From Haladaptatus salinisoli (lineage in GTDB: Archaea; Halobacteriota; Halobacteria; Halobacteriales; Haladaptataceae), in assembly GCF_020614375.1 (NCBI RefSeq), contig NZ_CP085327.1, forward strand, positions 1,352,823 through 1,416,822: a stretch of 64,000 nt of DNA, given 5' to 3'. The notes under the pieces are model-generated. The model was not told where the DNA came from. It did no database searches and saw nothing but the letters and a program-made list of their open reading frames with translations. Every line of letters begins with the position of its first letter. Positions within the stretch are counted from its first letter, which is position 1. Made by a program: the position numbers and the translations under genes. Positions 37,611-41,282 of this stretch are shown here, piece by piece.

Positions 37611-39167
37611 TTAGTCTGCGCTCCCTTCGATGCTCTCGATTCCGGGGATGCCCTCGACCCCCATCGACGACAGCTCCTGTTTGAGTTCCTGTTCGTCCTC
37701 GACGTTCTGGCTGAGCTCCATCGCCTGCGCGAAGTTCTTCACCAGTCCACAGTTCGGCCCCTCCGGCGTTTCGGAGGGACAGATGCGACCCCACTGGGTC
37801 GCGTGCAGGTCGCGCGCCTCGAAGTGCGGCTGACTCCGCGAGAGCGGACTCCGCAGGCGGCGGAGGTGCGACAGGACGCCCATGAAGTCGGTTCGGTCGA
37901 CCAACTGCGACACGCCGGAGCGACCGCCGACCCAGTTCCCGGTCGCGATGGGGTGTTCGAGGCGCTCGGTGAGCACGTCGGAGCGGACGACGGTGTTCAC
38001 CGACAGTTGTCGGTTGCGCATGTTCGCGCGTTCGAGCTGGTACTTCACGTCCCGCGCCAGCTTGTTCAACGCCGTGCGGAACAGGTCTTTCATCAGGTTG
38101 CCGGACACCTTCAGGCGCTTGTTGGCGTAGTGGTCCTTGTCGTCCGCCTCTCGTCGACCCAGCGCGAGTTCGAAACACGCCTCTGCCATCCGGGCGAGGT
38201 AGTACGCCTTGTTGATTCGCACTTCCTCCTCGTCGACGCCCTCCTCGTGGAGGTGCGGTAGGAGGTAGCGGTCGATGACGTAGTTCGCGCGTTTCAACTG
38301 GTAGTTCTTGCCCTGTCCCGAGGCGACCCGCTTTCCGAGCGCCTCGATGGCCTCCTCCTGCGTCTGCACCTCGGCGGCCTCCAGATTTTCGAGCATGAAC
38401 TTCACGATTTCCGGGTCGTCGGAGACGCGGTGGACGATCTCCTCGTCGGACTCCAGCCCCAGCGCCCGAACGAGCGTGACGAAGTTGACGCTCCCCGAGA
38501 CCGAGGGGAACGACACTTCGAGCAGGCCGTCGCGGGTTCGCTCGACCAACACCAGCGCGCGGTAACCCCGGCGCTGGCTGAACGTCTTCGCCACCTGAAT
38601 CTCGTCGCCGTACTTCGTGTCGTACTCGGCGAGAATCTTGTTCGGCGCGAGGTCCTCCGAGGTCATCAGGACCCGCTCGGAGCCGTTGACGATGAAGTAC
38701 CCGCCGGGGTCGGCCGGGTCTTCGCCGATCTCGACCAGGTCGTCGGCGTCGAAGTTCGCGATGTTACACTTCTCGGAGCCGACCATTATCGGCATCCGAC
38801 CGACCTTCGTCTCGGTCGAATCGACGACCCGCTTGTCGTCGCCTTCGCCTTTCACGATGGTCATCTCCATGAAGACGGGTGCGGCGTAGGTGATGTTGCG
38901 GAGGCGGGCCTCCTGCGGGTAGAGGAGCTCTTCGCTCCCGTCCGCCTCGCGTACGCGCGGCGTGACGACCCTGATGTCGCCGAGTTCGACGTACACCGGT
39001 TCCTCGCCCTCTTTGTCCCCGATGTCGGTGTCGATGGTCTCCTTCTCGGTCACCACTTCCTGCATACCGCGATTCAGGAAGGAGTTGAACGAGCGGTAGT
39101 GATGTTCTGCGAGCCGTTCTTTCGAGAAATACTCCTTCGATAGTGCGCGTCGGTCTTGCCTTTGCAT
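37611..39167 (-). CDS. rpoB2: DNA-directed RNA polymerase subunit B''
   Basis: N-terminal fragment of the second-largest subunit, 518 residues, with protrusion, lobe and fork parts. Recognisable blocks are [69 protein letters not shown] and near the C-terminus [20 protein letters not shown]. The start overlaps the rpoH stop by one base (TAATG). Confidence 0.98.
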
Positions 39168-39394
39168 TATTCCACCACGAGTCGATAAACGACCGCTCGG
39201 TCGGTCGTTCGTGAGTCACGGACGATCTTGATCACGTTGCCGACCTCGGCGTCGTCCGGCAGCGCGGGGTCCGCCCGCTTTATCTTTGGTAAGTCGGTGC
39301 GTTTGATGTCGTACTCCTCGAGCACTCCCTCCAGTTCGCCCTCGTCGACGACGGAGTGCTCGGGAACCAGCTTGTGTTTGCTTACGTCTACCAT
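39167..39394 (-). CDS. rpoH: DNA-directed RNA polymerase subunit H
   Basis: Small polymerase subunit of 75 residues (Rpb5 C-terminal domain homologue): [19 protein letters not shown], then [11 protein letters not shown] and [12 protein letters not shown]. It is the first gene of the rpoH-B2-B1-A1-A2-nusA operon, the standard archaeal order. Confidence 0.98.
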
Positions 39395-39474: not shown

Positions 39475-39665
39475 CTTGCTAACTAGAGCGCACACGCCCG
39501 GCTATCGCACCCCGCATCCGTGCGGGCAGTTCTCTAACACAAGTATCTACTTCGTTCTGGTATAAATGGTTTGGGCCGACGTGTCGACGCTCGGTACGAA
39601 TCCGCACGCCTCCTTCGTTTGGAAAGCCTTAAGCCTACAAGCCAGAAAGGAGAGAGTGCGTCCAA

Positions 39666-39738
39666 GCCCGGGTGGTGTAGTGGCCCATCATACGACCCTG
39701 TCACGGTCGTGACGCGGGTTCAAATCCCGCCTCGGGCG
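39666..39738 (+). tRNA. tRNA-Asp(GTC), copy 1
   Basis: A 73-nt cloverleaf: acceptor GCCCGGG/CTCGGGC (one G-U), anticodon stem CGACC/GGTCG with loop CTGTCAC (anticodon GTC), T-arm GCGGG-TTCAAAT-CCCGC and discriminator G. No intron and no encoded CCA. It is identical to the copy at 40372. A TATA-like CCTTAAGCC about 36 nt upstream (39624-39632) is its probable promoter. Confidence 0.96.
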
Positions 39739-39839
39739 TTCTTCTGAACTTACGAGCAGATCAATTGTGGCGAGTGAGTTTCGTAGTGAGGCCCATGTTC
39801 AAATAGAAAAACGAACCACGGGTAGTCTGTACTCTAGCG

Positions 39840-40283
39840 ATGAACACGTCGAGAAAAGGTGACGAAACGGAAGCGGTGGTTCTGAGCAGACTCGTGGAAG
39901 TCGGCCTGTCGGTCTCAGTTCCGTTCGGAGATGGCGAGAGATACGACCTCGTAGTCGATGACGGGAGCCAACTATATCGAGAGCAATGCAAAACCGGAAG
40001 CCGGGTGAACGGCGCAATTCGTTTCAATCTCTACATCTCCACCGTGAGTTCGGAGGGACGTGTCGATTCGGATTACGCCGCGGACGAGATCGACGGTTAT
40101 GCAGTGTACTCGCGGAGAATGGATGAAGTCTACTGGATACCCATCGAAGAGACTAGAAACGGAGAAATGCGATCGGAGTGGACGAGTCGCAACCGAAGGC
40201 ACCGACATCGAAAATTAACTGGGCTGACCAGTACAGGATTGCGACGATGTTTGGTTGATTTTTGGTGCTTGGAAAGTACGTAG
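39840..40283 (+). CDS. PD-(D/E)XK-type endonuclease-like protein
   Basis: Protein of 147 residues resembling the small PD-(D/E)XK nucleases described with group I introns. The N-terminal KGDETEAVVLSRL helix is followed by PFGDGERYDLVVD (28-40) and YREQCKTG (46-53). D36 and QxK at 49-51 occupy the metal-binding positions, and DGYAVYSRRMDEVYWIPIEE (85-104) follows as in the family. The C-terminus is basic (SRNRRHRHRKL), suiting nucleic-acid binding. It is the only gene between two identical tRNA-Asp genes, and its codon use is more AT-rich than its neighbours, which suggests transfer. The target is unknown. Confidence 0.75.
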   Translation: MNTSRKGDETEAVVLSRLVEVGLSVSVPFGDGERYDLVVDDGSQLYREQCKTGSRVNGAIRFNLYISTVSSEGRVDSDYAADEIDGYAVYSRRMDEVYWIPIEETRNGEMRSEWTSRNRRHRHRKLTGLTSTGLRRCLVDFWCLEST

Positions 40284-40333
40284 TGATTCAAACTGCGTTA
40301 TTCCCTCCCACAAGCTGACGAAATCGACACCCC

Positions 40334-40342
40334 TTAATAAGG
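40334..40342 (+). promoter_or_regulatory. TATA-like box of tRNA-Asp copy 2
   Basis: TTAATAAG is centred about 34 nt before the second tRNA-Asp. It differs from the box before the first copy, so the duplicated segment does not include the promoter and each copy would be transcribed from different upstream DNA. Confidence 0.4.
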
Positions 40343-40371
40343 GCGCGGAGTAGGTGGAGTTGCGTTCTCAA

Positions 40372-40444
40372 GCCCGGGTGGTGTAGTGGCCCATCATACG
40401 ACCCTGTCACGGTCGTGACGCGGGTTCAAATCCCGCCTCGGGCG
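40372..40444 (+). tRNA. tRNA-Asp(GTC), copy 2
   Basis: All 73 bases equal those of the copy at 39666, and the next ~19 flanking bases differ at only two positions. Anticodon GTC, perfect stems apart from one G-U in the acceptor. Full identity implies a recent duplication or ongoing conversion. Confidence 0.96.
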
Positions 40445-40551
40445 TTCTTCCGAACTCACGAGCGAGGCGTCTGCGCCGAGCGAACGCCAAACCGGTGTCG
40501 ACTGCGAGCGTCCGACTCCGGTGCGACGGAGCGTGAATCGGAGCGTACTCG

Positions 40552-41097
40552 ATGGTGGAATTTTTACACGTGTGCGCGGAATCACCGCGCGACCCCGAAA
40601 CTCTGCTCGGCCGTGAGGACGTCCCCACCGCCGACCTGCATCGTGAATTCGACCGCTAGAAGTACGAAGCGCTCGAACGGCGGTGCGAAACCATCGACGG
40701 CGTCGTCGCGATTGGCGTCGTCGAGGACGGTGCGGTTCTCCGACAAGGGCCGAAATGGACGACGCTTGGCGGGAGCGTCCTCCCCGACGGGGGCTGGGTC
40801 GAAGCCGCGATAAACACCTTCGACCACGTGACCGGCGTCGAGATCGAAATCGAGGAGCCGGTGCTCTTCGAGCGAGTTCGCTTCTCCGCGGAGGGCGACG
40901 TCGAGTCGGATTTCTCGGCACCGGGGGTTCACTTCCGCGCGTCGTTCGCCGAGGGCGAACGCGCGTTTCGGGAGGAACCGACGGTCGCCGACGACGACGC
41001 CGAGCAGTTCGAGGAGGTGGAGTTCGCGTGGTTCGAAGAGATGCCCGAAGATGCGCACCCGAACCACGAGGAGCACGTCCGACTGTTCTTCGAGTAA
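40552..41097 (+). pseudogene. NUDIX hydrolase-like gene interrupted by an amber codon
   Basis: Reading from the ATG at 40552 gives a continuous protein-like frame of 181 codons broken only by TAG at 40657-40659 (codon 36). Both sides look like one haloarchaeal NUDIX-like protein: before it LLGREDVPTADLHREFDR, after it KYEALERRCETIDGVVAIGV, GPKWTTLGGSVLPDGGWVEAA and ending in HEEHVRLFFE. The NUDIX box itself is degenerate. A single G-to-T change from GAG would create the stop. Restart at GTG 40828 could give an 89-residue C-terminal fragment, but this would lack half the fold. TAG ends many normal genes here. Confidence 0.65.
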
Positions 41098-41282
41098 TCT
41101 CCGCGACTGCGACGCCGACGAACGCTCCGAGCGTTGACGCGCGCTCGTCCGGTTACCGTCGACCGAGCGGACGGCATCTACGTTTCGGCCAAACCTATAC
41201 GAATCACCGTCGCGTGACGGGACTGGGGGAGAGAAATGACGCAACTCGTAGAGGGTGGGGAGACTCTCGCGGAACTCGACGC

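Follow-up and report, generated by a model that had tools for sequence, protein, structure and literature searches.

The window, i.e., the whole 64-kb stretch of Haladaptatus salinisoli DNA that was analyzed, holds four tRNA genes according to ARAGORN, two of which are tRNA-Asp(GTC) genes on the plus strand. Both lie in the arms of a direct repeat, on either side of a nuclease gene, and the features of the locus are as follows:

39167..39394, minus strand: rpoH-like gene, used as the anchor of the site
39663..39757, plus strand: left arm of the 95-bp direct repeat, 93/95 positions identical to the right arm
39666..39738, plus strand: left tRNA-Asp(GTC), GC allele; pair 28:42 (tRNA numbering) is formed by G 39694 and C 39708
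39840..40283, plus strand: PF11645 (PDDEXK_5) nuclease ORF of clade A, with family sequence to approximately residue 111 (approximately 40172)
40178..40252, plus strand: family C-terminus coded in another frame, the mark of a frame break
40318..40371, plus strand: segment immediately 5' of the right tRNA; part of it recurs in the close relative G392 despite differing nucleases; probably the promoter of the right tRNA
40369..40463, plus strand: right arm of the 95-bp direct repeat, from pairwise comparison with the left arm
40372..40444, plus strand: right tRNA-Asp(GTC), same sequence as the left tRNA-Asp at 73/73 positions; GC allele with pair 28:42 at 40400/40414

A 95-bp direct repeat with a whole tRNA-Asp gene in each arm, placed around an AT-rich nuclease gene, is what the earlier note had described, and the identities of the arms (93/95) and of their tRNA parts (73/73) confirm it. 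The segment between the arms (39758-40368) has a GC content of 51.4% vs. 65.2% for the window, the lowest value in a scan of 611-nt segments at 50-nt steps, in agreement with the AT-richer insert proposed there. The absence of an integrase was also corroborated: no integrase-sized ORF was found between the repeat arms among the listed ORFs, which leave no space for one in the 633 nt between the two tRNAs. Moreover, the whole tRNA is repeated here, whereas an integrase-borne tRNA island would carry an integrase and a repeat of the 3' end only. The rpoH-like neighbour was present at 26/26 full-size loci of the window's own family (the window's own genome excluded). On the right flank (40445-41190), the window is approximately 0.5 kb longer than the related locus L152 until homology returns, and a short open frame (40828-41097) is located inside this flank.

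The window ORF was assigned to PF11645 with an E-value of 1.3e-30 and 106.6 bits (cut-off 26.1), and it matched no family in NCBIfam. The closest solved sequence is I-Ssp6803I (E 7.4e-4), and a fold search returned the four chains of 2OST as its top four matches (E 1e-10 to 4e-7); the small PD-(D/E)XK nuclease recognized earlier is thus I-Ssp6803I-like by both sequence and fold. The catalytic D..QxK residues (D36, Q49, and K51) were invariant in 41/41 aligned sequences, and the nearest named relative found, from Haladaptatus sp. DYF46, shared 75% identity over residues 1-111. Past approximately residue 111 the ORF departs from the family frame, the family C-terminus being encoded at approximately 40178-40252 in another frame, and in the structure model of the ORF the pLDDT was < 50 from residue 118 onward. 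Judged by its reading frame, the window copy looks frame-broken, unless a base was misread there, and with a frame broken near residue 112 it may be dying. It is likely a formerly working homing element of the type proposed below that is now apparently frame-broken; relatives hold intact copies. Within its own genome, the window nuclease was the sole significant copy (second match E 0.056), and no tblastn match was found in plasmids. In five loci (L001, i.e., the window locus, L091, L038, L177, and L161), Rfam searches at the gathering cut-off matched tRNAs only, and a group I intron was absent.

Occupied and empty states of the site were compared using L152 (G397), a locus of the window's own family with a single tRNA-Asp, in which the rpoH neighbour is kept and the nuclease was not found. 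The left side through the first tRNA aligns with L152 over 969 bp (83%) for the window and over 851 bp (80%) for L161, and in both the alignment returns around the second tRNA and further right. The gene is therefore a stand-alone gene between conserved genes and shows presence/absence polymorphism (window and L161 occupied; L152 empty). According to the earlier note, occupied sites should hold two tRNA-Asp copies and the gene, and empty sites one tRNA and no gene; L152 conforms to this, but tandem tRNA-Asp genes approximately 102-124 bp apart also occur in genomes without a PF11645 match (e.g., G112, G190, and G115). As such gene-free pairs exist, another one being found without a nuclease gene in G024, a tRNA pair alone is no proof of insertion. 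The pair is not always a product of the gene, which in clades B and C is often located outside it.

Two further lines were dropped. L208 (G328) was considered as a clean empty site against L127 and L136 and was discarded, as only its right side matched. Nuclease remnants in the gaps of tandem tRNAs were searched with tblastn, which gave matches in 6/37 gaps; none was counted as proven, because all six queries were L155/L157 and the matches fell outside the nuclease-matching stretches (five wholly, one mostly).

Linkage of PF11645 genes to tRNA genes

A profile search detected PF11645 in 192/391 genomes of the class vs. 0/14 control genomes. The haloarchaeal loci examined (n = 149; the best-scoring listed matches from other genomes, minus contig 206 of G354) all had a same-strand tRNA gene nearby, and in one case the nuclease lay within the tRNA gene. 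An intron-free same-strand tRNA was located at most 1.2 kb upstream in 125/149 loci, and in 135/149 when tRNAs at most 700 bp downstream were included; the remaining 14/149 had an intron-bearing same-strand tRNA at most 0.9 kb away or surrounding the nuclease. Within these ranges (1.2 kb upstream, 700 bp downstream), opposite-strand tRNAs were found in 0/149 loci. The chance expectation for a tRNA at most 600 bp upstream on one strand, taken from the density in the window (4/64 kb), is approximately 2%.

In a second collection of genome contigs, whose species overlap with those of the first, an alignment-based scan recovered 70 loci and a single-protein scan recovered no relative. Same-strand tRNAs were present near 62/63 of the haloarchaeal loci in this collection (Asp 47, Pro 10, Lys 5; L251 was the one without a tRNA), and 0/7 distant acidobacterial loci had a same-strand tRNA nearby. 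Among the viral contigs (L284-L306), tRNA genes were found near PF11645 relatives in 20/23, all on the same strand and at a distance of at most 1.5 kb on the upstream or 0.9 kb on the downstream side. Many of these viral tRNA neighbours stand in arrays of 9-25 tRNAs.

The identity of the tRNA (Asp, Pro, Lys, or Asn) tracks the nuclease clade. In a tree of 168 nuclease cores, the Pro(TGG) (25 rows), Asn (12 rows), and Lys (8 rows) types each correspond to one change, and the Asp nucleases form three clades, A (including the window), B, and C, which are single branches with SH-aLRT values of 100, 93, and 98, respectively, once four long or broken rows are removed. Clade A genes are flanked by tRNA-Asp on both sides in 17/17 rows, and those of clades B and C are found more often next to a lone tRNA-Asp or outside a pair.

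The relatives of the Lys and Asn types are associated with short introns in the anticodon arm of the tRNA. Intron-bearing tRNA-Lys was adjacent at 10/10 Lys-type loci, and the usual tRNA-Lys anticodon arm was found uninterrupted in 0/10 Lys-type genomes vs. 16/24 comparison genomes, i.e., genomes without a listed Lys-type match (in the other 8/24 it was not found; in G021, where no uninterrupted arm matched, the stem departs from the search pattern). Of the Asn-type loci, 8/12 had an intron-bearing and 4/12 an intron-free tRNA-Asn, and the uninterrupted tRNA-Asn pattern occurred in 3/12 Asn-type genomes vs. 15/16 main-genus genomes without a PF11645 match, with the tRNA-Asn of G282 being intron-free too in a form that the search pattern cannot match. 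At L091 (G021), the nuclease ORF lies within a 451-nt intron of tRNA-Lys(TTT) (according to ARAGORN, the tRNA-Lys spans 2239-2765 and shares the strand of the nuclease); the intron follows base 37, the usual archaeal site, and its ends pair with exon sequence in a bulge-helix-bulge-like fold, as they do at L038. Since an intron breaks the gene yet leaves the mature tRNA unchanged, DNA appears to be the likelier target of these nucleases.

Nuclease clades and tRNA-Asp alleles

Among the tRNA-Asp genes at 27 loci from the family to which the window belongs, one anticodon-stem pair varies, G28-C42 (GC allele) vs. A28-U42 (AT allele), with further changes beyond pair 28:42 in the genome of L178. 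The tRNA-Asp copies within a locus are concordant except at L157, which holds only a nuclease fragment. Searched class-wide by exact pattern, the GC allele is present in 260/391 genomes, the AT allele in 116/391.

The allele linked to the gene matched the nuclease clade in 110/112 rows (112 of 113 Asp rows were counted; L157 was omitted). In clade C, 68/69 rows were non-GC, namely 66 AT, one CGGCC..GGCCG, and one TCACC..GGTGA, which amounts to three different compensated stems, and one row was GC; in clades A and B together, 42/43 were GC and one was AT. A simple Fisher test of this table, in which rows are treated as unrelated, gave p ~1.6e-28. The association recurs in all of the 14 genera that hold both clade C and clade A/B nucleases, where C rows are AT and A/B rows are GC, L019 excepted. 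This locus is the AT exception in clade B and has an in-frame TAG in its nuclease; the GC exception in clade C is L112, whose frame is open and whose branch is long, and it argues against a strict coupling of clade and allele. A close relative of the window, G392, has the same left flank through the left tRNA (95.5% over 1043 bp) and carries a clade-C nuclease together with the AT allele in both tRNA-Asp copies.

The AT allele is rarer in clades A/B (1/43) than in PF11645-free genomes (42/199; p 0.0017, again with rows treated as unrelated). As 42/199 genomes carry AT without the gene, the allele does not require it, and its occurrence there is compatible with gene loss following fixation as well as with neutral change. 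Both alleles were found together in six genomes, and no Asp nuclease was located at most 1.5 kb from a tRNA-Asp in five of these (G356 left out). Tandem GC + AT pairs of tRNA-Asp genes without an adjacent Asp-type nuclease were seen at L204/L211 (G096), L205/L212 (G321), and L206/L213 (G293).

Proposed mechanism and alternatives

The islet is probably a free-standing homing endonuclease element that would cut the anticodon-arm DNA of the other tRNA-Asp allele and be copied together with its own, predicted resistant allele. The nuclease would cut a sensitive tRNA-Asp allele in DNA at the anticodon arm, repair of the cut would copy in the nuclease gene along with the predicted resistant tRNA allele (intronless homing), and the swapped stem pair, or an intron, would block cutting. 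As for direction, clade C nucleases would cut the common GC allele, and those of clades A and B the AT allele. The flanking tRNA copies may act as ready homology arms, so that the cut tRNA gene of a distant species could be repaired from the element with its tRNAs intact. Since tRNA-Asp is indispensable to the cell, a cell with sensitive copies only would be cut, and one that takes up the element would be rescued. Against this mechanism stand the tRNA-Asp pairs and AT alleles that occur without the gene, the GC exception L112, the 4/12 Asn-type loci with an intron-free tRNA-Asn, the 8/24 comparison genomes in which no uninterrupted tRNA-Lys arm was found, and the apparent frame break of the window copy.

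The earlier note had suggested a tRNA-linked homing unit that could cut a tRNA-Asp gene lacking the insert while rebuilding an intact tRNA. The homing-type family, the family-wide tRNA linkage, the missing integrase, and the gene-free single-tRNA site L152 speak for a homing unit, but the second part does not hold as proposed, because insertion between two intact tRNAs rebuilds the target twice and is no protection by itself. The sequence comparisons point instead to protection by the allele, with its swapped anticodon-stem pair, or by an intron.

The same enzyme could also home in another manner, with the allele merely co-converted, the stem swap non-protective, and the target elsewhere nearby, which we consider unlikely. 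Gene and allele are only a few hundred bases apart, co-conversion alone might couple such neighbours, and the free-standing endonucleases of phage T4, in excerpts of their description (PMC2988022), cut at least hundreds of bases off and co-convert the flanks. However, clade C is linked to three different compensated stems and not to a single haplotype, the relatives associate with other tRNAs in which an intron interrupts this same arm, and a carrier requires some protection. It is very improbable that the protein is an RNA-cutting toxin (an anticodon nuclease) accompanied by an adjacent immune tRNA: such a toxin would suit the tRNA linkage and the tRNA stem change that tracks the nuclease, but the closest relative with a solved structure is a homing enzyme that acts on DNA and, in the Lys and Asn groups, the matching change is an intron, which is missing from the mature tRNA.

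Least probable is that the islet is a common integrative island targeted to a tRNA, or that a tRNA was duplicated in tandem and a stray gene is decaying in the space between. Copies of tRNA 3' ends are expected of integrase sites, and the 3' end of tRNA-Asp does recur as a 22-nt copy downstream of many tRNA-Asp genes; tandem tRNA-Asp pairs without the gene exist as well. Speaking against this reading are the repeat, which spans the whole tRNA and leaves no space for an integrase, the adjacency to tRNAs in 149/149 listed loci and in 62/63 haloarchaeal loci of the second, overlapping collection, the tRNAs on both flanks in 17/17 clade A rows, and the clade-allele association. The 22-nt copies (bases 52-73) were seen approximately 130-200 bp downstream of the tRNA-Asp genes (e.g., L158:501-522, L158:1339-1360, and L160:1718-1739), at 7/10 loci of clade A, 7/25 of clade B, 18/59 of clade C, and 0/25 of the Pro type.

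Beyond the single homing element favoured here, we tentatively consider a wider scenario as a serious possibility, i.e., a two-sided natural cleave-and-rescue war over one tRNA-Asp pair, in which lineages would cut each other's allele and carry their own compensated, uncuttable one, and whose turnover would drive anticodon-stem change, tRNA duplication, and tRNA intron gain class-wide. In the engineered cleave-and-rescue drive, the cutter attacks an essential gene and is inherited together with a form of that gene that it cannot cut. The proposed cutter with its linked, predicted resistant tRNA allele would resemble this design, but it would be natural, with a protein nuclease and with a tRNA carrying a compensated base pair as the putative rescue.

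Known systems and wider meaning

The nearest known system is I-Ssp6803I, presented in excerpts of PMC1995217, which has Bonocora and Shub 2001 among its references, as a PD-(D/E)XK homing endonuclease belonging to a group I intron that interrupts a tRNA-fMet gene of a cyanobacterium. The haloarchaeal nucleases share with it the Pfam family, the fold, and the D..QxK residues, and, as their linkage, alleles, and introns suggest, they may also be enzymes of the anticodon region of tRNA genes. Unlike I-Ssp6803I, they have no group I intron (at the Rfam gathering cut-off in five loci including L091), their genes are free-standing beside a tRNA and only once inside an archaeal-type tRNA intron, and tRNA-Asp is unbroken, with an allele swap instead.

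The free-standing endonucleases of T4 spread by intronless homing, and one of them, SegB, is found in the tRNA region, as given in excerpts of PMC2988022 and PMC13096335. They are similar in that a stand-alone gene is placed between conserved genes (SegB among tRNA genes), and a nearby target and co-conversion, as proposed for the haloarchaeal element, would extend this likeness. In contrast to the haloarchaeal PD-(D/E)XK enzymes of the cell chromosome, those of T4 are GIY-YIG enzymes and phage-borne, and the same excerpts of their description mention no tRNA stem swap (PMC2988022, PMC13096335). Stand-alone PDDEXK_5 genes, of the same Pfam family, are also reported from huge gut phages in excerpts of PMC12363816, where a tRNA linkage is absent from the description, whereas 20/23 of the viral contigs analyzed here were tRNA-linked.

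In the literature searched, which was partly available as excerpts and left subscription journals mostly uncovered, no report was found of a link between PF11645 genes and the tRNA genes of haloarchaea, or of a tRNA stem swap as resistance to homing. Within that literature, the I-Ssp6803I-type enzyme and T4-style intronless homing are thus already known, and the haloarchaeal tRNA link and resistance by a stem pair are unreported. If the proposed mechanism is true, resistance to a natural gene drive would lie in the exchange of a single base pair in an essential tRNA, compensated so that its function is spared. The surplus of tRNA-Asp genes in haloarchaea, the scatter of introns among their tRNAs, and the compensated changes in their stems would then have a concrete cause, and a cycle of drive, resistance, and decay could be read over hundreds of genomes. 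At Pro-type loci (e.g., L023, L032, L077, L081, and L090), the anticodon stems of tRNA-Pro(TGG) are strongly divergent yet paired, as an arms race would leave them, judging from a comparison among Pro-type loci.
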